Origin: a virus
DNA length: 23,268 nucleotides
Direction: 5' to 3' (one strand)
IMG/VR virus record: IMGVR_UViG_3300025120_000579
Span: 1-23,268 of that record
Under the pieces are notes generated by a model that saw only the letters and a program-made list of their open reading frames with translations, had not been told where the DNA came from and ran no database searches. The position numbers were made by a program, and so were the translations under genes. Below, in pieces: positions 3,184 to 19,772 of this stretch; the stretch's first letter is position 1, and the number at the start of each line of letters is the position of its first letter.

Positions 3184-3390
3184 ATGATTAAATTAAGAAT
3201 AATGAATGAAACAGGACATACAGAAGTAATGATGAGTAGTGAAAGCATCATCGAACAAATAGATACACACCCAACCCATTGGTGTTTTATTGATGGGGAA
3301 ATGGTAGCAAGAGAAGACATTTCGAATGTTAATTGGGATGAGGTCACATCAGTAGATTTGACCCCTGCAATTGTTGGAGGAAGCGAGTAA
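3184..3390 (+). CDS. Ubiquitin-like (MoaD/ThiS-like beta-grasp) protein with C-terminal Gly-Gly-Ser-Glu
   Basis: A 68-residue protein with the layout of a small ubiquitin-like modifier or sulfur carrier. Strand 1 is MIKLRIMNETG and strand 2 HTEVMMSS, followed by a helix (ESIIEQIDT). A strand pair (CFIDGEMVARED) comes next, then the closing WDEVTSVDLTPAIVGG. The 'vdGe.v ... DEV.lvPaivGG' ending is characteristic of MoaD, ThiS and prokaryotic Ubls. Gly65-Gly66 is followed by Ser67-Glu68, so two residues must be removed to expose the di-glycine that an E1 adenylates. E1-like (6317) and JAMM peptidase (7178) genes downstream supply the expected partners. GGAAGTGA precedes the ATG, and a TATA-like word and a downstream hairpin flank the gene. 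Modifier versus sulfur carrier cannot be settled from sequence. Confidence 0.75.
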   Translation: MIKLRIMNETGHTEVMMSSESIIEQIDTHPTHWCFIDGEMVAREDISNVNWDEVTSVDLTPAIVGGSE

Positions 3391-3417
3391 GGCTATTCAA
3401 CAATACTTCATACCAAT

Positions 3418-3450
3418 GGGGGAGACTACCTGTAATTAGTAGTCTCTCCC
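3418..3450 (+). terminator. Stable intergenic hairpin after the ubiquitin-like gene
   Basis: A perfect-register inverted repeat: GGGGGAGACTAC (3418-3429), a nine-base loop, and GTAGTCTCTCCC (3439-3450). This gives a 12-bp stem with one G-T pair. It sits 27 bases after the ubiquitin-like stop and 18 bases before the next start. It could attenuate or end transcription, protect an mRNA 3' end, or be a protein-binding dyad. No strong T-run follows, so a simple intrinsic terminator is uncertain. Confidence 0.45.
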
Positions 3451-3468
3451 TCCTATTTAGGTGATGTT

Positions 3469-3846
3469 TTGAGAGGATTTAATTCGTATCAAGAGTTTTT
3501 GACTACGGTATTAGTTTTCTCTCAAAACTTATCTAATGATTCTCTTTTGAGAATTGATAACGCTAGAGATATTATCTCAAATAATAGAACCATGCCCGAA
3601 AAAGAAAAATATATTTTTTGGCGCAGACAACTACACTTATGTCTTTGGGAATTACCCGAAGCCGTAAATATCGGATTCAACGCATATCTAGATGAGAATC
3701 TCACTCATTATAGAGATGCCTTAAGATATCATGACGAAAATTGTCATGATTATAATTGTAATATCTGTACTATAAAAACAGATATGTTAGAAAAAATGAG
3801 GAATTTAAATGACAAAAGAACAGAACCCCGAATATATTCTCAATAA
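3469..3846 (+). CDS. Hypothetical protein with Cys/His-rich C-terminal segment
   Basis: A 125-residue mostly helical protein. The start is TTG, placed four bases after AGGTGA; the in-frame ATG choices are far inside. Near the C-terminus, HDENCHDYNCNIC provides three Cys and two His that could bind a metal. The centre has a Trp/Leu-rich helix (FWRRQLHLCLWELPEAV). I do not recognise the family. The end overlaps the next small gene. It lies between the ubiquitin-like gene and a larger unknown, so a link with the Ubl cassette is possible but unsupported. Confidence 0.6.
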   Translation: MRGFNSYQEFLTTVLVFSQNLSNDSLLRIDNARDIISNNRTMPEKEKYIFWRRQLHLCLWELPEAVNIGFNAYLDENLTHYRDALRYHDENCHDYNCNICTIKTDMLEKMRNLNDKRTEPRIYSQ

Positions 3847-3973
3847 GAGAAAGAATAAAAATATAGCAACACGCTGTAGAGTTTGCGGAGGTCAATTGAT
3901 GACAGCCCAAGATATAGCAAAGGAAATACATCAAGAATGTGATGTAGATAATAATAAAATGTATATGATGTGA
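3809..3973 (+). CDS. 54-residue zinc-finger peptide
   Basis: ATG at 3809 has GAGG seven bases upstream, inside the end of the previous gene. The peptide carries Cys23-Arg-Val-Cys26-Gly-Gly and then His41-Gln-Glu-Cys44, a C2HC-type zinc-finger arrangement, with a basic N-terminal segment (KRKNKN). The clear ribosome site and metal ligands support it as a real gene. Function is unknown; nucleic-acid binding is plausible. Confidence 0.55.
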   Translation: MTKEQNPEYILNKRKNKNIATRCRVCGGQLMTAQDIAKEIHQECDVDNNKMYMM

Positions 3974-3977
3974 TAAA

Positions 3978-5132
3978 ATGAAAATAGAAATCAAAAAACC
4001 TAATGATAGTAGAGAATATTATGAAACAGAAGTAACTTCAAAAGACCTTTCTCTCCCAACGAGAGCCACGGTTTCCTTTGAAAGAGAAGATAAAGACCCT
4101 GTTCACGCAGGGATAACCAAGTTTTGGAAAAATTTAATTGCCCGTCGCAATGGTTATACTTGGAGCATACCAACTGGTAATTTTAGCACCATGCTCATGA
4201 TTAAGTCCTGTCCTATCCTTATAGGAAGAAGTGGAAGTAGATTGAAACTTCAAGGGCAATATGTTAGTTTACAAACTATGGCTTCAGCATTAGCAAGAAT
4301 AACTTACAAATCTTGCTTTGAAGAAGATGCAGAAAAACTAATGCTGAGTTTGTATTCCACTCTTAACCTACCTGAGAATGTTAGGTATTGTTTAGAAAAC
4401 AAAGTCCCCTTTCACTTCTATGAAGACTTTAATAAAATAGAAGTTAGACTAAACTGTCAGCAAATAGGTGATAATGAGTTTGGCATAGAAGTAAGTGATG
4501 GTGTATGGGGAACTCTTACTGCTAAAGAGTTAGATGTTTATTGTAATTTTTATCTTCATGGCAAAGAAAGAAGCAAAAAGTGGAGAAGACTTTCACCTAA
4601 AAAATTATATTCAGTCTTAGTGGATAGAGAACCCACTGAATCCCAACTTACAGTAATGGTAGCGTTCCTTCAACAGAATAGAATGGGCGATATAGTTGAG
4701 AGAAGGGCAATGCAGTTGGTAGAAGATATGTTAGTGCAACACCAAAAAAGATTAATTCCGTTCTTTGATAAAGAAGGAAGATTAGAACACTTAGTTGTTA
4801 AGGGTAAAATACATGATTGGAGATTAACCTCTAGGGGTAATACTGATTATACATCTACTTCACTTCAAAGCGTATCAACCTTTATTTTACAAGAAGACAC
4901 ATTTAAAGAAGGTATCCCTACCAAAATTTGGAAAGGGCCGATATGTATAGATAATATGGCCAAAGGCTCTCCATTGGGCGACCAGTACGCTACTAGAGCA
5001 TTGGCGTTATTAAATGACAACCATACAATAAAAATAGTTAATACAATAAAAAGTTACATCACACCTAGTGATGATGAAATAAGAGTGGATGAAGATGTTT
5101 TGCGAAAATTGCGAGAAGGATATACAGAGTGA
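3978..5132 (+). CDS. Unknown 384-residue protein in the Ubl cassette
   Basis: No family is recognised with confidence. The N-terminal 200 residues mix strands and helices (for example KIEVRLNCQQIGDNEFGIEV, 153-172). Residues 219-258 form a helical block beginning EPTESQLTVMVAFLQQN. The C-terminal 140 residues hold a helix (242-259), strands around 268-285, then FKEGIPTKIWKGPICIDN (309-326) followed by two helices. That last order, an F-x-x-x-x-P segment, a G-x-ICxDN with Cys323, then helices, loosely recalls the E2 ubiquitin-conjugating active-site region. The gene sits between the Ubl and E1 genes. The resemblance is short and could be chance, so the E2 idea is only a hypothesis. The start at ATG 3978 follows GTGATAAA. 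Confidence 0.65.
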   Translation: MKIEIKKPNDSREYYETEVTSKDLSLPTRATVSFEREDKDPVHAGITKFWKNLIARRNGYTWSIPTGNFSTMLMIKSCPILIGRSGSRLKLQGQYVSLQTMASALARITYKSCFEEDAEKLMLSLYSTLNLPENVRYCLENKVPFHFYEDFNKIEVRLNCQQIGDNEFGIEVSDGVWGTLTAKELDVYCNFYLHGKERSKKWRRLSPKKLYSVLVDREPTESQLTVMVAFLQQNRMGDIVERRAMQLVEDMLVQHQKRLIPFFDKEGRLEHLVVKGKIHDWRLTSRGNTDYTSTSLQSVSTFILQEDTFKEGIPTKIWKGPICIDNMAKGSPLGDQYATRALALLNDNHTIKIVNTIKSYITPSDDEIRVDEDVLRKLREGYTE

Positions 5133-5952
5133 ATTTGATGAAAGGCTAGGAGAACATGCCTGTTTAGAATGTGGCCTTGTTTTAGTTACAGAAATATTCG
5201 AACAAACAGTGTATAGTTTAGATGCTAATGGTGAAAGGAAGCATTCTATTGATGGTAATACTCTAGGTTCTATGATACCTAACCATCGGTTAAGTAGTCT
5301 AAACAACCGTTCTGTATTCTCACAGCATATTCAAAAAGGTTTAATTCACTGTAATATGGTGTTGAGTTCTATACAACCCAACTCTCCTCTAAAGAAAAGA
5401 GTAGAAGAATTCTATCTATTCTGTAATAGAAAGGGAGTGTTCGGTAATTCTCAGCATGAGGCTAGAGCAACAGCAGTAGTATATTATGTGCTGAAAGAAA
5501 ATGGAACTCCTTACTCTTTAGTTGATGTAAATAGCGAATTTAAGGCTAGGACAAAAACAATCAAAAGACTACTAAGAGAGATGAATAAACTGAATAAGAA
5601 CATGGTTAGTAGAAAGCCAATTAACCCCCAATATCAACTAGAACGGGTGTTATTGAAGATAATGGGTGGGTCTAAATTCAATGAACAATGTTATGAGGTT
5701 TTAGAACATTTTGAGACAGTCATAGTAGATAGTGATTTTAACAAAGGGCGTTCTTATTACGCCTGTATTGCATGGATAGCGGCTAATTGTAATGTTAGAA
5801 AGGACATAACGAAACAAATGATTTCAAAGAGGACTGGGTTCTCCGAGTGGGTTATTTGGAGACAAACAAAAGCAATATTAAATTTGATAGGAAAGGATAA
5901 TTTAAAACAAATAAAGGGAAAGAAAATAACAATGGTGATTAAAAATGAGTAA
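5089..5952 (+). CDS. tfb: Transcription initiation factor B (TFB/TFIIB family)
   Basis: A 287-residue protein with the TFB layout. The N-terminal zinc ribbon has Cys5, Cys8, Cys25 and Cys28 (FCENC ... CLECGLV). A B-finger-like linker follows (VYSLDANGERKH ... NHRLSSLNNRS), then two cyclin-like helical repeats, about 90-170 and 185-280. The C-terminal repeat ends in a helix-turn-helix-like TKQMISKRTGFSEWVIWRQTKAILN. TFB recruits archaeal RNA polymerase to TATA/BRE promoters, so a viral copy could redirect host transcription to viral genes. ATG 5095 is an alternative start two residues in. The gene overlaps the upstream unknown by 44 bases. The cyclin repeats are diverged from cellular TFBs. 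Confidence 0.88.
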   Translation: MKMFCENCEKDIQSEFDERLGEHACLECGLVLVTEIFEQTVYSLDANGERKHSIDGNTLGSMIPNHRLSSLNNRSVFSQHIQKGLIHCNMVLSSIQPNSPLKKRVEEFYLFCNRKGVFGNSQHEARATAVVYYVLKENGTPYSLVDVNSEFKARTKTIKRLLREMNKLNKNMVSRKPINPQYQLERVLLKIMGGSKFNEQCYEVLEHFETVIVDSDFNKGRSYYACIAWIAANCNVRKDITKQMISKRTGFSEWVIWRQTKAILNLIGKDNLKQIKGKKITMVIKNE

Positions 5953-6154
5953 AGAAATAAAAGAAGAATGGTATGAATATTATGTATATTTAGAAGAATT
6001 ACGGCAAAGTGGAGAAACCAATATGTTTGGTGCTACTCCATATTTGAGAGAGGAGTTTGGCGTAGGCCGAAGAGAAGCAATAGAGATTCTAGGTAGTTGG
6101 ATGGATAACTACGCTGAATTGATAGAAAAAGGAATAATTGATAGAGGTGAATAA
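5945..6154 (+). CDS. Small conserved-phage-like helical protein
   Basis: A 69-residue acidic protein. The segment LRQSGETNMFGATPYLREEFGVGRREAIEILGSWMDNY matches a small protein pattern I recall as common in marine phages (LR.SG.TNMfGA.pYL...Fgl...eA..iL..W). It looks like a compact helix-turn-helix or adaptor fold, but no role is known. The start follows GGTGAT and overlaps the end of the TFB gene by eight bases, suggesting coupled translation. Confidence 0.65.
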   Translation: MSKEIKEEWYEYYVYLEELRQSGETNMFGATPYLREEFGVGRREAIEILGSWMDNYAELIEKGIIDRGE

Positions 6155-6155
6155 T

Positions 6156-6314
6156 ATGTATGTAGAAAAAGATTTTGAAGAAAAGAAGAGAAAGATTTTA
6201 GAAGAAATTGGAGAAAAATTAGACATACTGAAAACTCATAAATTGATTTATTGGGGAGACATAAAGAATTGGGTCATAGAAATATTAGAAGAAAACGAAA
6301 TAAGGAGAGAATAA
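6156..6314 (+). CDS. 52-residue charged helical peptide
   Basis: ATG 6156 lies one base past the previous stop region with AGAGGTGA upstream at 6143-6150. The peptide is almost entirely charged helix (Glu/Lys-rich, residues 4-26), followed by HKLIYWGDIKNWVIEILEENE. It ends inside the ribosome site of the E1-like gene, which follows after two bases. The position, ribosome site and codon pattern support expression. Function is unknown; a small partner protein is conceivable. Confidence 0.5.
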   Translation: MYVEKDFEEKKRKILEEIGEKLDILKTHKLIYWGDIKNWVIEILEENEIRRE

Positions 6315-6316
6315 AT

Positions 6317-6877
6317 ATGAAAAGAAAAATATTAGTAATTGGAGCAGGTGGTATTGGGAGTTTCTTAATACCGCTTTTAGATAAAGTAGAATTGTATAAC
6401 ATAACAGTAGCAGACCCCGATACGGTAGAAACAAAGAATCTACCATATCAAAACTTTAATGTTGATGATGTAAGACAGAATAAAGCAAAGGTCATGTATA
6501 ACAATCATAAGAGTGTTGGGAACTGTAAACCCTATCCTATTCTAACAGAAAAACAGATGCAAGAATATGACTTGGTTATTTGCTGTGTAGACAATTTATC
6601 AGTTAGAAAAACATTATACAACACAACCGTTAAATGGCTTGACCTTAGAGCGCAAGGTAGAAATGCCGCACTTGTGTCGCATAAAGCAGACCCTAAGATG
6701 TATGATATGCTTTTAGCGGGAAAAGATGGTTCATTTAGTTGTCAAGGGGATTCATGGGATGGTTCAAATAAAGGAGTTCATTTTATGCAAGTGGCTATTG
6801 CAGGAATGGGCGCACAATGGACTCAAAGATGGTTTAATGAAGAACAAGTGCAAGAATATATGGTGGTGAACCTATGA
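6317..6877 (+). CDS. Compact E1/ThiF/MoeB-like ubiquitin-activating enzyme
   Basis: A 186-residue Rossmann-fold adenylating enzyme. The nucleotide loop is GAGGIGS (9-15). The E1 signature DPDTVETKNLPYQNF (33-47) gives the Asp pair, Asn41 and Gln45, though the usual Arg before Gln is Tyr. DVRQNKAKV (51-59) supplies Lys56, and DLVICCVDNLSVR (85-97) supplies the conserved Asp92-Asn93 and Arg97. Cys142 in GSFSCQGD is at about the place where ThiF/MoeB enzymes carry a sulfur-handling or catalytic Cys. The paired zinc cysteines of MoeB/ThiF are absent. The family adenylates the C-terminal Gly of a Ubl. I chose ATG 6317 because AAGGAGAG precedes it; upstream extension has no site. The stop overlaps the next start (ATGA). 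Confidence 0.88.
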   Translation: MKRKILVIGAGGIGSFLIPLLDKVELYNITVADPDTVETKNLPYQNFNVDDVRQNKAKVMYNNHKSVGNCKPYPILTEKQMQEYDLVICCVDNLSVRKTLYNTTVKWLDLRAQGRNAALVSHKADPKMYDMLLAGKDGSFSCQGDSWDGSNKGVHFMQVAIAGMGAQWTQRWFNEEQVQEYMVVNL

Positions 6878-7185
6878 GTAAGAAATGGACAAAAGAAAAA
6901 GAATTAGATTTATTAGTTAATTTTTATGAACTAAGTATTGAAGAAGCAAGAGAAAGATTTGATGCCTCCTATAAAACAATAGCAGGTCGATTAGAAAAAC
7001 TATTTGATGACGAATCCGAAGAGGGCGTAGCCCTTCTATTAGATGCTTCTAAGAAGGTTAAGATGCAAAAGAAAGCAGGTAACATAGTAAATGAGAACTT
7101 TACTAGAAGGCAAAGAAGATTGGCTGTGAAAATAAATAAATTACAAAGAAAATTAGACAAACTAAGTGGTGAAAAGAATGAGTAA
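6874..7185 (+). CDS. Small SANT/HTH-like DNA-binding protein
   Basis: A 103-residue protein. The first 45 residues (KKWTKEKELDLLVNFYELSIEEARERFDASYKTIAGRLEKL) match a Myb/SANT or sigma-like helix-turn-helix pattern. The pattern is a Trp-led first helix, a turn around residues 24-28, and a recognition helix with TIAGRLEKL. The second half is basic and helical, ending in a heptad-like run (LAVKINKLQRKLDKL) that could dimerise. It lies between the E1-like and JAMM genes and overlaps both. It may be a regulator or a DNA adaptor. Confidence 0.65.
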   Translation: MSKKWTKEKELDLLVNFYELSIEEARERFDASYKTIAGRLEKLFDDESEEGVALLLDASKKVKMQKKAGNIVNENFTRRQRRLAVKINKLQRKLDKLSGEKNE

Positions 7186-7825
7186 AACTGGCGATTGGGC
7201 ATTAAGTGAAGAAGAGAAAAAAGAATATCATGATGATGGTTATGATAAATTTCTTGAGGAATTACAAATTAATGAAGCACAGAAAGAATTTGAGGCTCTA
7301 GAAAAGGCTAGAGCAAGGGCTGAACAACACATACTAAATGTATGGGTTGAAGAAGGTATGTTAGAATTGAAAAGTATTGGTGTTGATTGGAATAACAGAC
7401 ATACGGTAGATATGACTTCATATAAAGATAAAAGATTCTTTAATGCTATTTGGCATGCTTCAACTGAGATATTACCGGGTCTTGAAGTGCAAGTAGTTAT
7501 TGATGGAAATAATGACTGTTATGTTACAACAGGTTCTTCGGGATATGTAGAATTTGGAATGCAACCACCTGTAGGAATGAAACTTCCTATTAGGTGTTGG
7601 ACTCATACTCATCCATTCGGTAGGGCGTATTTTAGCGGTGTAGATATTAATACTGTTGCTAATTGGCAACTTCTAATGAAAGAAGCCTATGTCTTAGGTG
7701 GGGTAGAGCATTTTGGTCACTGGACACAAAAAGAACCATATGAGTTAGATATCTTTGTTGATAACCAATATGAAGAAACCCAAACATGGTCACATAAATT
7801 AGCAGAGGTTGGTGAAGAAGAATGA
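7178..7825 (+). CDS. JAB/JAMM metalloprotease (deubiquitinase-like)
   Basis: A 215-residue protein with an exact JAMM zinc motif, His-x-His-x7-Ser-x2-Asp, at His143, His145, Ser153 and Asp156 (THTHPFGRAYFSGVD). A preceding strand, GLEVQVVIDGN, may supply the catalytic Glu (Glu103, less certain). JAMM enzymes hydrolyse bonds after the Ubl C-terminal glycine or process Ubl precursors, matching the Gly-Gly-Ser-Glu tail of the protein at 3184. Residues 10-65 are a long charged helix absent from minimal JAB proteins and may position a partner. ATG 7178 is preferred since GGTGA lies five bases before it. The gene overlaps an HTH gene upstream and the GroES-like gene downstream. Phage tail-assembly JAB proteins are the alternative, but no tail gene or NlpC domain is nearby. 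Confidence 0.85.
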   Translation: MSKTGDWALSEEEKKEYHDDGYDKFLEELQINEAQKEFEALEKARARAEQHILNVWVEEGMLELKSIGVDWNNRHTVDMTSYKDKRFFNAIWHASTEILPGLEVQVVIDGNNDCYVTTGSSGYVEFGMQPPVGMKLPIRCWTHTHPFGRAYFSGVDINTVANWQLLMKEAYVLGGVEHFGHWTQKEPYELDIFVDNQYEETQTWSHKLAEVGEEE

Positions 7826-8040
7826 AAGCAGTAGGAGATTATGCATGTATTGAGATTGAAAACACTATCACTAGTAGTGGTATTCAAGTAAAGAACGACG
7901 GCATTGGGGTTTGTTTATCTTGCCCTTCTAAACCTAACTTAGTAGATTGTCAAGTTTTATTTGATATAAATCAAAAGTTTCATGAGCATGAAAATATGAT
8001 TTTTATTGATAGTAAGTTTATCATGGGGATAGTAGAATGA
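7822..8040 (+). CDS. GroES-like co-chaperonin
   Basis: A 72-residue protein with the Cpn10 pattern. MKAVGDYACIEIE aligns with the first GroES strand. TITSSGIQVKND resembles a shortened mobile loop ending in the Gly-Ile pair that docks into GroEL. QVLFDINQKFHEHENMIFIDSKFIMGIVE matches the GroES C-terminal strands that end '(I)LAIVE'. It is shorter than bacterial GroES (about 95), lacking much of the middle. The chaperonin gene begins 209 bases after its end, a strong contextual argument. GGTGAAG precedes the ATG, which overlaps the JAMM gene stop. The cysteines at 33 and 36 (CLSC... spacing) are unusual for GroES. Confidence 0.65.
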   Translation: MKAVGDYACIEIENTITSSGIQVKNDGIGVCLSCPSKPNLVDCQVLFDINQKFHEHENMIFIDSKFIMGIVE

Positions 8041-8252
8041 ACGATATAGAGTTATACGAAGACATTTTGTTACGAATGATTGATGTGACTGAAAATGGAG
8101 ACTTGTTTAGAGAAGATATGGATGATAGGCTTTTGATTGGGGAACTAGAGGTTCTGTTAAAGATGGTTAAAATGCTATTACAAACAATACCCGAAAAGAA
8201 ACAAGCATATGATTTGTGGAGAGGAATCCAAACAAGGTTGGTGGAAGAATGA
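8037..8252 (+). CDS. Small helical protein between GroES- and GroEL-like genes
   Basis: A 71-residue acidic protein that should be nearly all helical (DIELYEDILLRMIDVTENG, then LLIGELEVLLKMVKMLLQTI). No motif or family is recognised. Its start overlaps the GroES-like stop and its stop overlaps the chaperonin start (ATGA on both sides). It is therefore likely translated with the chaperonin pair and may be an accessory subunit. Confidence 0.6.
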   Translation: MNDIELYEDILLRMIDVTENGDLFREDMDDRLLIGELEVLLKMVKMLLQTIPEKKQAYDLWRGIQTRLVEE

Positions 8253-11483: not shown

Positions 11484-12975
11484 TTCTATTGTACAGACGC
11501 AACAAATAAATGGAATAGTTAGAAGCCTAAAGAACACTACTTTAGTACCAAAGAGAGTATTACTAATTCTAGATAAAGATAATCTACCAAGTAATAATAT
11601 TGGTTTATCTAGAGCAAAGAAATGGTTAGCAAAAATCTTTCAAGTGTTTGAGAGTGAGATTGATGGTCTTTATGCCGCACATAATTGTTTAGGTTCTGCT
11701 GTTTATCATTTAGAAGCATCAGCAGAATGTAAGAAGCAATACTCATTGAAACAGACTTATCAACTATTAAGTATGGACACAGGTAAAATAGATTCTTCAG
11801 CGTTCAAACTAATGGAAGAAATGCTACCTAATATGTCTGCTAATGCTAGACAATGGTTTGTCAGATACTGGATTAGGAAACCTAGAAACGGCATCAATGA
11901 AGGAATAGTAACTAAAATAGTGTCTAAATATTACAACAAACCACTCAAAGATGTAAAAAAACATTTGAACTTTAATGATTTAGAAATAGTAGTAAACCAT
12001 TATACGATTTCGGCAAACCCTATGTGTAATTTAACACACGGCAAATTTGTAAAACCAATGTTAGCCAAAGAAGTCCCTATGAATAAGTGGCCGGAGAATA
12101 AGATTGTAGATTACAAGTATGATGGTAACAGGTATCAAATACACAAAGAAGGGGCTAATGTAATTATCTTTAATCGTAAAGGTTCTATTGTTACGCCACA
12201 GTTTCAAGATGTTGTAGAAACAGTTAGAGAATATGATACAGATTGTATTCTTGATGGTGAAATATATCCGATTAAAGACGACGGTTCACCTGCTGAACAT
12301 AAGTTAATGGGAACAAGAGTTCATTCTAAAGACCATGCGGAAGCAAGAGAGAAAGTTAAAGTCAAGTGGGTTATATTTGATTGCCTCAAGATGGGAGATA
12401 AGACTATTATGGATTTAGAGTATCTTACTAGATTACAATATATGAGAAAATTACCCGACCAAGCACACAGAATGGAAATTGGTGGTGATGTTATAGCATT
12501 CTATAATAGAGCCATTAACGATGGTTTTGAGGGCATTATTATCAAAGATACTACCCTACCCTATGAAGCAGGTAAAAGAAGCGCAGGGTGGGCTAAATAC
12601 AAGCCTCCTAGAATAAATCTAGATGTGGTTATTGTTAAGGCTAAATACGGTCAAGGTAATAGGTCAAATGTGTTTGGAACCTTTGAGATAGCAGTTAAGA
12701 ACGATACTGAATTTGTTTCAGTTGGTAGCGTCGGTTCAGGATTTACTGATGAAGAATTAATTAGACTAACCAATACTCTAAGAAGGAATGTGGTTAGTTT
12801 TGAGAACAAAACATTCGAGTTCGCCCCTAGTGTAATATTAGAGGTTACTGCTGATTTGGTGTCAAGGGATGATAATAATAATTTGGGATTGAGATTTCCA
12901 AGATGTGTTAGGATTAGAGATGATAAATTTGTTGCTGATATTAATACTTTAGATGATGTGGAGGCATTAGAATGA
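11443..12975 (+). CDS. lig: ATP-dependent DNA ligase
   Basis: A 510-residue protein with all nucleotidyltransferase motifs. Motif I is KYDGNR with the adenylated Lys225. Motif III is DCILDGEIYP around Glu273, and IIIa is VKWVIFDCL (308-315). Motif IV is EGIIIKD (363-369) and motif V GWAKYKP (382-388). The OB-domain motif VI is LRFPRCVRIRDDK (483-495). Residues 1-200 form the helical DNA-binding domain of archaeal/eukaryotic ligase I types. The enzyme seals nicks in DNA, here probably joining Okazaki fragments with the clamp and polymerase encoded nearby. Starts at ATG 11443, 11458 and 11467 are all possible; none has a strong ribosome site. The stop overlaps the next start. Confidence 0.95.
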   Translation: MTWETMSRMLESNDSIVQTQQINGIVRSLKNTTLVPKRVLLILDKDNLPSNNIGLSRAKKWLAKIFQVFESEIDGLYAAHNCLGSAVYHLEASAECKKQYSLKQTYQLLSMDTGKIDSSAFKLMEEMLPNMSANARQWFVRYWIRKPRNGINEGIVTKIVSKYYNKPLKDVKKHLNFNDLEIVVNHYTISANPMCNLTHGKFVKPMLAKEVPMNKWPENKIVDYKYDGNRYQIHKEGANVIIFNRKGSIVTPQFQDVVETVREYDTDCILDGEIYPIKDDGSPAEHKLMGTRVHSKDHAEAREKVKVKWVIFDCLKMGDKTIMDLEYLTRLQYMRKLPDQAHRMEIGGDVIAFYNRAINDGFEGIIIKDTTLPYEAGKRSAGWAKYKPPRINLDVVIVKAKYGQGNRSNVFGTFEIAVKNDTEFVSVGSVGSGFTDEELIRLTNTLRRNVVSFENKTFEFAPSVILEVTADLVSRDDNNNLGLRFPRCVRIRDDKFVADINTLDDVEALE

Positions 12976-13409
12976 TAGAAGTGGGAGATATGACAATAAT
13001 AGGAACGACTACTTATCGCTGCATTAGAATAGATAATGATGATAATGTTTTCTTAAAAAACATTCTGCATGATAAAGGCAGAGCATTAGTGTATAAAAGA
13101 GATTTATGCCCCTATATAGAAAATAATTTATTAGTAGTTCCGGAACAACCTAAAAAGAAAAGAATGACAACTAGAGTGAACATTTCAAAGGTTGTCAAAG
13201 AAAGTACCAACTTAGTTGTTTCTAATACCGCCAAAAGATTTCTAGTAGAATGGGTTGATACTGCTATTGCCAATTTGATTGCTAATGCTGAGGAAAATGC
13301 CGCACTTCGTGGAAAGCAAAAAATAACTGCTGCTGATTTGTTTTGGTTAGAAACAAACAACCTTCCTTCGGGTCATTGGAAAGACAATGAAGTATTCTTT
13401 AAGGAGTGA
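12972..13409 (+). CDS. Protein with C-terminal archaeal histone fold
   Basis: A 145-residue protein in two parts. Residues 1-60 look like a small beta domain (VGDMTIIGTTTYRCIRID ... VFLKNIL), SH3/KOW-like in appearance. After a Lys-rich linker (PKKKRMTTR) comes a histone fold. It has a short helix VNISKVVKE, then the loop and long helix VSNTAKRFLVEWVDTAIAN continuing LIANAEENAALRGK, and the last loop-helix QKITAADLFWLE. The 'N..A......A..rgkqkITaaDl' pattern matches archaeal histones. Histone-fold proteins wrap DNA or dimerise in TAF/NF-Y-like regulators. The fusion to an N-terminal domain differs from the usual 65-70-residue archaeal histone. The start overlaps the ligase stop (ATGA). Confidence 0.75.
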   Translation: MIEVGDMTIIGTTTYRCIRIDNDDNVFLKNILHDKGRALVYKRDLCPYIENNLLVVPEQPKKKRMTTRVNISKVVKESTNLVVSNTAKRFLVEWVDTAIANLIANAEENAALRGKQKITAADLFWLETNNLPSGHWKDNEVFFKE

Positions 13410-16194: not shown

Positions 16195-17103
16195 ATGTTA
16201 TGGACAGAAAAATACAGACCAACTAACCTAGCACAAATAATAGGACAAGAACATTTTGTGATAGATGCTAATTCATGGGTAGAAGAAAACAATATGCCTA
16301 ATGTTTTGTTATATGGAAGTGCAGGCAACGGTAAAACAGGTGCAGGAATAGTCCTAGCAAAAGAAATACTGAAAGATAATTTCAAAGAAAACTTCTATGA
16401 AGTGAATGCTTCCGATGATAGAAAACTGGAAATGGTTAGAACTACGATTAAAGATGTAGCACAAAGCGGTACATTAGGAGATGTACCATTTAAAATAATG
16501 CTATTAGATGAAATGGATGGTATGACTAATGAAGCGCAGAATGCATTAAAAAGAATAATGGAAAGGTATTCTAATAATATTAGATTTGTTATTACTTGTA
16601 ATAATAGAAACAAGATTGTATTTCCACTACAAAGTAGATGTGCAAACTATCATTTTAAACCATTATCTAATAATGCAGTAAAAAGAGTATTAAAGTCTAT
16701 ATTGACTAAAGAGAACATTGATAGGTTTTCTGATGAAGAATTAGACTCCTTTATATATGCTATGAATGGTGATATGAGAAGGGCGATAACCGAGTTACAG
16801 GCCGCTAAATCAAGCGGGGCAACCTTAAAAAAACAAGTTTCGGCATCGTTAGATGACTACAAGAAATTAGTATTAAAAATCAAGGATAGTAATTCAACTG
16901 CTCTAGGAGACATTCACGAAATGATATATTATGGCCTTTCAATGAAAGAGATATGTCTAGGATTACACGATGCTGTAATTGATATGAGTGAACTTGACAG
17001 TACAATGAAGTTTAGATTCCTTAGAACTATAGGGGAGAGCGAATGGCGTTCCACAACTATGACCCCTAAAGTGCTAGCCTCATGGTTAGTAGGAAGTGTT
17101 TAG
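16195..17103 (+). CDS. rfcS: Replication factor C small subunit (clamp loader)
   Basis: A 302-residue AAA+ protein starting MLWTEKYRPTNLAQIIGQ, the RFC box. Walker A is GSAGNGKT (41-48) and Walker B IMLLDEMD (101-108). NEAQNALKRIMERYS and LQSRCANYHF contain the typical Arg and the SRC motif (147-149). The C-terminal collar helices follow. The family loads the PCNA ring onto primed DNA using ATP. It is slightly shorter than cellular RFC-S (about 320-330). GGAGG precedes the ATG. The clamp gene is 2.7 kb downstream and the PIP-box ATPase at 14165 may be its larger partner. Confidence 0.95.
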   Translation: MLWTEKYRPTNLAQIIGQEHFVIDANSWVEENNMPNVLLYGSAGNGKTGAGIVLAKEILKDNFKENFYEVNASDDRKLEMVRTTIKDVAQSGTLGDVPFKIMLLDEMDGMTNEAQNALKRIMERYSNNIRFVITCNNRNKIVFPLQSRCANYHFKPLSNNAVKRVLKSILTKENIDRFSDEELDSFIYAMNGDMRRAITELQAAKSSGATLKKQVSASLDDYKKLVLKIKDSNSTALGDIHEMIYYGLSMKEICLGLHDAVIDMSELDSTMKFRFLRTIGESEWRSTTMTPKVLASWLVGSV

Positions 17104-18953: not shown

Positions 18954-19772
18954 ATGGGATTAACAAATAATATAAATAAAGAAATGATAGAAAAAGCAGG
19001 AAATAACAGAAGAGTAGAAGCGTTTAGAGACAAACTTAAGTCCCAAACAGAAGTTAGACTAAAGAGAAACAGTCGCTTAGTTTGTGGAGTTTGGGGAGAA
19101 CCTAAAACAGTAAAGAGTGGATTAGCCTTAGACTTCCCCGAAAAACAAGTTTATGTTTTAGATTGGGATGATGGTTGTGAGCCAACATGGAGACAGAATC
19201 ATAAATGTGCTGATAGAATTACGCTATGGAATCCGGAAGTAAGAAATGAAAATGGTGAATTAGACATACAAAAGTCGGAAGCAAATTCCGAAGACTTTGT
19301 TTTGTTTGTCAAAGAAAAGATTGAACAGGGAGAAGATGTTCTTTTTGTTTTCGACGGTGTGGATAAATGGCTAGACTGTTGTACACTTCATGTTACAGGA
19401 AGTTCTAAAATTGGTAAGCCACAAAAAATGAAGTTCGAGTGGGGCAAAAGAAACGCCCCGTTTTATTCTTTATTGGCTATGTGTAAGAATCTAAATTGTG
19501 ACCAAATTTACATTACTCATGCTAAAGCAGACTACGGTGCCACTGGTGAAGTAATAGGAACAAAACCCAATTGGCATAATTGGGGAGACTTTTTACACCA
19601 AATTATTAGCACTAAAAGAATACTAAAGAAGGGCGATGTAGCATACAAAGCCACTCTTACTAGTAGTAAAACAAATACTTCCCTAGTGGGAACTACTTGG
19701 GAAACTCTAGTAGTTGGTAGTGGTAAAGTAGAATGGAATGGAATAAAAGAATTAAGAGAGGGAACAATATGA
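18954..19772 (+). CDS. Sak4/RecA-like ATPase (putative phage recombinase)
   Basis: A 272-residue P-loop protein. The Walker A region is GVWGEPKTVKSG (45-56), and VYVLDWDDG (67-74) lies where RecA-like proteins have a second strand. The Walker B is VLFVFDGVD (129-137). TSKTNTSLVGTTW near the end may be a sensor or DNA-contact loop. The size and motif plan match AAA_24/Sak4-type phage ATPases, which act with single-stranded DNA-binding protein in annealing and recombination. AGGTGA ends five bases before ATG 18954; a GTG nine bases upstream is unlikely. It lies directly before the clamp gene and overlaps it. The full RecA/RadA core is not present, so the name is a family-level call. Confidence 0.7.
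   Translation: MGLTNNINKEMIEKAGNNRRVEAFRDKLKSQTEVRLKRNSRLVCGVWGEPKTVKSGLALDFPEKQVYVLDWDDGCEPTWRQNHKCADRITLWNPEVRNENGELDIQKSEANSEDFVLFVKEKIEQGEDVLFVFDGVDKWLDCCTLHVTGSSKIGKPQKMKFEWGKRNAPFYSLLAMCKNLNCDQIYITHAKADYGATGEVIGTKPNWHNWGDFLHQIISTKRILKKGDVAYKATLTSSKTNTSLVGTTWETLVVGSGKVEWNGIKELREGTI

Follow-up and report, generated by a model that had tools for sequence, protein, structure and literature searches.

What does a virus of marine archaea do with genes for a ubiquitin-like protein (Ubl), an E1-type activating enzyme, and a JAMM protease? The question is raised by IMG/VR record IMGVR_UViG_3300025120_000579, a virus record of 23,268 nt that was analysed over its whole length (hereafter the window) and that is a fragment of a magrovirus, a tailed virus of Poseidoniales archaea. 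Its gene set, all encoded on the plus strand, comprises PolB, an ATP-dependent DNA ligase, RFC, a TFB-like factor, and a GroEL-type chaperonin, and the same set is known from the Magrovirales, an order of tailed viruses whose hosts are the Poseidoniales, or Marine Group II archaea (PMC10768690, PMC12999244; profiles of the International Committee on Taxonomy of Viruses; see PMC5332604 for the chaperonins). As the record is that of a marine tailed virus and its replication genes are of archaeal type, we assign the window to the Magrovirales; the capsid genes lie outside it. As a matter of anatomy, the presence in this archaeal virus of a module for activating and processing a Ubl is well supported, and we consider it very probable that the three genes together are, in one form or another, such a unit. 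This suggests that viruses of this group run a protein-tagging or sulfur-carrying pathway of their own during infection.

The Ubl, E1, and JAMM genes and their conservation

Searches with the three proteins yielded 130 viral loci. The complete trio is present in 77 of the Ubl-anchored loci, and in each of these 77 the genes are found on a single strand in the order Ubl>E1>JAMM. The distance from Ubl to E1 is 2.9 kb in the window and has a median of 4.9 kb in relatives. An earlier, sequence-only reading of the window had described the trio as encoded together; the genes are not direct neighbours of one another. To offset the bias of loci that had been found via the trio itself, a second sample was chosen by DNA polymerase, and all 12 searched viral records of at least 88 kb from this sample carry all three genes, including two from a group whose polymerase is only 44% identical to that of the window; records short of one trio gene are shorter fragments. 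The trio is thus kept together in related genomes. Identity to the window is mostly 63-84% for the Ubl and 65-91% for the E1, which ranks both with the best-conserved proteins of this region, and neighbours such as the 3469, 3978, and TFB-like proteins share 24-55% with their window counterparts (near-identical loci excepted).

The 3184 product is predicted to adopt the beta-grasp fold that the sequence-only reading had proposed for it. Its AlphaFold2 model, built from a 21-sequence alignment, displays the E-E-H-E-E-h-E order of beta-grasp elements with a mean pLDDT of 86 and a disordered Gly-Gly tail. When this model was compared in VIA, MoaD, SUMO, TtuB, ThiS, ubiquitin, and bacterial Ubls made up most of the matches listed, at low Z scores of 4-5. 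By sequence, the protein matched none of the Ubl families and its profile produced only noise against PDB sequences, and Foldseek with the model found nothing at E < 0.001; because Foldseek by itself gave no match, the fold assignment draws on the order of elements in the model and on the VIA list.

Each of the 57 distinct Ubl sequences has Gly-Gly at its C-terminus with at most two residues (0-2) behind it: 11 of them stop at Gly-Gly exactly, more than 20 different tails occur (SE, QE, NY, NL, SL, CY, HC, and others), and the ends found in distant clades are GGKL, GGL, GGCY, and GGQN. Frozen last core residues with a free tail behind them are what a precursor trimmed by a peptidase predicts, and the conserved partner for this role is the JAMM protein; judging from these ends, the C-terminal glycines would be available for activation. 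The Ubl is under purifying selection (pN/pS of about 0.30 over 363 unsaturated pairs) and has the lowest lysine content of all proteins in the window, with 1.1% lysine across its family compared to 8.4% in the rest of the window, a K/(K+R) ratio of 0.26 compared to 0.63, and 18 of 58 cores that contain no lysine at all. Such depletion is expected for a protein with an activated C-terminus.

The identity of the 6317 product as a compact E1/ThiF-superfamily enzyme is secure, based on the Pfam ThiF match and a predicted fold (AlphaFold2 pLDDT of 81) that VIA places at Z scores of 16-17 to TcdA, the SUMO E1, MoeB, and UBA5. It has the superfamily signature of a Rossmann adenylation domain with GxGGxG, DxD, NL..Q, K, and DN...R, which in the window protein includes GAGGIGS, DPD, NLPYQ, and DNLSVR, the last three in agreement with the motifs quoted in the sequence-only reading. 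Its one invariant cysteine, Cys142, is aligned with Cys184 of E. coli ThiF, Cys187 of MoeB, and the SCS cysteine of PRTRC-ThiF.

Likewise secure, by its motif, is the 7178 product as a JAMM protein, in line with the exact HxHx7SxxD peptidase that had been read from the window (Table 1). The putative catalytic Glu, His, His, Ser, and Asp (HTHPFGxAYFSGxD with the upstream Glu103) are invariant in 24 members and retained in distant relatives. The window protein itself matches Prok-JAB weakly (0.041), 22 of the 24 family members match it (best 2e-4), and profile matches to the JAB fold are weak, with AMSH-LP as the best meaningful PDB match (E 0.003). A coatomer match of the same profile was put down to a chance similarity to WD repeats.

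Table 1. Features of the Ubl module and its immediate surroundings in the window
Feature	Position	Strand	Basis
Ubiquitin-like beta-grasp protein (predicted), 68-aa precursor, C-terminal end AIVGGSE	3184..3390	+	AlphaFold2 model; conserved in all relatives
Invariant C-terminal Gly65-Gly66 of the Ubl	3376..3381	+	All 57 distinct sequences and all distant relatives
Variable Ser-Glu tail behind Gly-Gly, predicted JAMM cleavage product	3382..3387	+	0-2 residues in family
Conserved protein, 384 aa, invariant W-x-GPICIDN near the C-terminus	3978..5132	+	77/77 trio loci
TFB-like transcription factor, between Ubl and E1	5089..5952	+	Zinc ribbon Pfam E=5e-4, below cut-off
Compact E1/ThiF-superfamily adenylyltransferase, 186 aa	6317..6877	+	Pfam ThiF E=4e-16
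Cys142 of the E1, candidate catalytic cysteine	6740..6742	+	Invariant in E1 alignment and distant relatives
Small protein between E1 and JAMM	6874..7185	+	Relatives in 95 loci
JAMM/JAB Zn-metalloprotease, 215 aa	7178..7825	+	Motif HxHx7SxxD; Prok-JAB in family
JAMM motif HTHPFGRAYFSGVD (HxHx7SxxD)	7604..7645	+	Alignment; invariant in 24 members

Proposed protein conjugation and competing explanations

The variable tails, together with the invariance of the JAMM site, lead us to infer that the JAMM protease would trim the 0-2 extra residues off the Ubl precursor and thereby bare Gly-Gly, while the fold, the motifs, and the invariant cysteine of the E1 point to a second step in which this enzyme would use ATP to adenylate the Gly-Gly carboxylate before a thioester is formed on Cys142. 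The activated Ubl would then be attached to an amine group of proteins of the virus or the host, possibly (and speculatively) with the help of the 3978 protein, and the JAMM protease may also remove the Ubl again, as the function of its family suggests. Modification of proteins by SAMP, UbaA, and a JAMM protease has been experimentally shown in Haloferax (PMC4895103, PMC4443979). Conjugation of this kind that, as in archaeal SAMPylation, proceeds without a recognised E2 or E3 is the output that we favour, if only by a modest degree.

Several observations weigh against this interpretation. The E1 starts at its first strand and therefore lacks the N-terminal Arg-finger (RYxRQ) segment of MoeB-type enzymes, and the arginine of the NLxRQ motif is absent as well (Tyr44 is found where MoeB has Arg73), so that its ATP chemistry is only putative. 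No E2 or E3 was recognised, although the search with Prok-E2_B had no positive control and is thus uninformative. The co-occurrence of the three genes is in part the general synteny of the replication module and for this reason is by itself no proof of joint function. Lysine depletion cannot separate conjugation from sulfur transfer since E. coli ThiS is lysine-free too, and the PAIVGG end of the Ubl resembles those of the sulfur carriers ThiS and MoaD.

These last points belong to the main rival of conjugation, a sulfur relay in which JAMM bares Gly-Gly, the E1 adenylates it, and the sulfur of the resulting Ubl thiocarboxylate ends up on a nucleoside, a cofactor, or an amino acid, with donors and acceptors supplied by the host. 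The best structural matches of the Ubl include MoaD, ThiS, and TtuB, and the alignment of Cys142 with ThiF Cys184 fits a relay as well. A precedent for the trimming step is QbsE, from which a JAMM protease takes off a two-residue tail ahead of thiocarboxylation. Against a relay, the 12 long viral records (88 kb or more) contain neither a rhodanese nor a TtuA/NcsA-type acceptor enzyme in searches whose positive controls worked, which weakens this explanation even though host partners could serve; there is no sulfur-metabolism match among the window genes that were scanned, and the E1 is devoid of the zinc-binding cysteine pairs of ThiF and MoeB. Taken together, we regard a sulfur relay as rather unlikely.

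Counter-defence or host takeover, in which the viral JAMM would strip host SAMP conjugates while the viral Ubl and E1 act as decoys or redirect host tagging (e.g., of transcription factors), appears improbable to us. It could draw on the Borg elements of archaea, whose many predicted deSAMPylases have been proposed to counter host tagging (PMC12660748), on the TATA-binding protein as a SAMP2 target in Haloferax (PMC4895103), and on the TFB-like gene that is found between Ubl and E1 in 76 of the 77 trio-bearing loci, but a full Ubl and E1 of the virus' own, conserved like core replication genes, exceeds what a stripping enzyme needs. We give hardly any credence to the idea that the 3184 protein is a Lon inhibitor like PinA that has no part in a Ubl pathway and is linked to the E1 and JAMM genes by mere synteny, because the matches behind it (Pfam PinA, Inhibitor_I24, weakly in 9 of 21 members with a best E of 1.4e-4 and the window protein below cut-off; T4 PinA scored by the Ubl profile above all 2000 shuffles) are confined to residues 9-53, and the 161-aa T4 PinA has no Gly-Gly end comparable to the invariant one seen here.

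If the trio indeed acts in one of the first two ways, archaeal viruses modify proteins with a ubiquitin-like tag of their own or run their own sulfur relay, and a minimal E1 without the usual arginines of the ATP site would be a subject for mechanistic study in its own right.

Comparison with known Ubl systems

One of the closest known systems is the SAMP/UbaA/JAMM system of Haloferax volcanii, which shares with the magrovirus set a Gly-Gly-ended beta-grasp modifier, a single E1-like enzyme, a JAMM protease, and the archaeal setting (PMC4895103, PMC4443979). Unlike that system, the magrovirus set is encoded by a virus, its Ubl carries a tail of 0-2 residues that would be cleavable, and its compact E1 lacks the zinc cysteines, the N-terminal Arg-finger segment, and the NLxRQ arginine. 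This E1 is not of the UbaA type, as its NCBIfam score of 28 bits compares to a cut-off of 450.

By E1 profile, the nearest relative is PRTRC-ThiF (hhalign 99.4%, E 1e-21), from the PRTRC cassette that bacterial plasmids carry (ParB, E, C, F, B, A, ThiF), and both proteins have a single cysteine and a VNL end. Single MoeB and ThiF sequences score somewhat behind single PRTRC ones, and a tree does not settle whether the viral E1 groups with PRTRC-ThiF. The cassette also unites a small C protein with protein A, a JAB protein. The viral E1 reaches only 46 bits for PRTRC_ThiF (cut-off 145), the C protein ends in KG rather than GG, and neither the Ubl nor the 3978 profile matches PRTRC C, E, F, or B. 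Of the earlier suggestion that the window holds a Ubl activation/processing system such as CBASS, Bil, or PRTRC, the general anatomy has stood up well, and PRTRC membership failed on the tested features.

Type II CBASS (with Cap2 and Cap3) and Bil combine E1-type activation with deconjugation by a JAB protein, and the E1 domain of Cap2, an E1-E2 protein that acts on cGAS (PMC10097602), resembles the viral E1. In contrast to Cap2, the viral enzyme is a single short domain that comes with a dedicated Ubl; its 186 aa match E1-E2 models over their E1 part only, and the uncontrolled search mentioned above recognised no E2. Clusters of prokaryotic Ubl, E1, and JAB genes as well as the Ubl-JAB pair of lambda-type tails were described by Iyer et al. 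in 2006 (PMC1779556). The latter pair (TAPI/TAPK) likewise comprises a virus-encoded Ubl with a conserved terminal glycine and a JAB peptidase, but the lambda clusters are described without an E1 and in the tail module, and membership of the magrovirus trio was rejected given its E1 and its replication-type neighbours. Borgs encode many deSAMPylase-like JAMM proteins, and one of these elements has a SAMP (PMC12660748). The arrangements in the clusters of Iyer et al., CBASS, Borgs, and lambda-type tails all differ from that of the magrovirus trio.

A gene with the JAMM motif (HxHx7SxxD) also occurs in tailed crAss-like phages (DAC15 and bajarodcaudo virus 1), where it immediately precedes an E1 gene, yet these phages have bacterial hosts, a longer E1, and the reversed gene order, with no small diglycine protein in the 12 kb inspected. 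Their JAMM-motif proteins, HSHHTMGAFFSGTD / HSHNNMPTFFSGTD (within the JAMM-E1 regions 3290-6663 of the DAC15 locus, L134, and 4601-6657 of the bajarodcaudo virus 1 locus, L135), are annotated as hypothetical or as E1 enzyme family protein. The DAC15 gene preceding the JAMM-motif gene encodes an E2-like HSHV...DPCLGEGPI stretch.

Bacterial sets of Ubl, E1, and JAMM genes mostly serve defence or metabolism, whereas here such a set is core and highly conserved in an abundant order of marine archaeal viruses, which would bear on the movement of ubiquitin systems between mobile elements and cells. The searched literature contained nothing that connects magroviruses to ThiF or ubiquitin (an earlier mention in Philosof 2017 or Prabhu 2025 is possible), and a magrovirus diversity paper mentions neither.

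The 3978 protein and neighbouring genes

The 3978 protein is present in every trio-bearing locus and possibly constitutes a fourth component of the Ubl module. Besides the motif listed in Table 1, it has a second one, GDQ(F/Y)..RALAL(L/F)ND, and it matches no family and no PDB entry; an assignment as PRTRC F or B or as the E2-like protein of crAss-like phages was unsupported by profile comparison. Speculatively, leads to a target of tagging would be the 3978 protein itself and the TFB-like factor encoded between the Ubl and E1 genes. It is conceivable, though we would not call it probable, that the trio represents the first Ubl conjugation system of an archaeal virus, built from core genes of a whole order with a lysine-poor, tail-trimmed Ubl, an E1, and a JAMM protease, and with the 3978 protein as a new component that acts as an unrecognised E2, adaptor, or obligate target.

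In the window, the trio lies within the replication module, with the TFB-like, chaperonin, ligase, RFC, and PolB genes as neighbours. The sequence-only reading had placed it next to TFB, PCNA, and RFC, of which the TFB-like gene does lie in between but matches its zinc ribbon weakly, the RFC gene (at 16195) is about 8 kb away, and the PCNA-like gene (at 19769) is about 12 kb away and has no Pfam match.

Minor observations concern other genes and the sampled contigs. Between the Ubl and 3978 genes, a 54-aa Cys-rich open reading frame (3809-3973; CRVCGGQ...HQEC) has relatives in 73 of the 77 loci. Also between Ubl and 3978, about half of the relatives, unlike the window, have a large open reading frame that by eye resembles ribonucleotide reductase (9651-11540 in L053, and in 40 other loci). 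Three magrovirus-like contigs (L131, L132, and L133), the only ones from the genome-contig scan (n=3), lie inside bacterial metagenome-assembled genomes (Maricaulis, Altibacter) and appear to be misbinned. The C-terminal half of the protein encoded at 12972-13409 looks like an archaeal histone-fold segment by eye (ISKVVKESTNLVVSNTAKRFLVEWVDTAIANLI...KQKITAADLFWLE), without a significant Pfam histone match. A small protein (7822-8040) that is GroES-like by eye is encoded a short distance ahead of the GroEL-type chaperonin gene at 8252, and the gene at 1473-2126 encodes a member of the pyrimidine dimer DNA glycosylase family (Pfam Pyr_excise, 8e-8; compare T4 endonuclease V).

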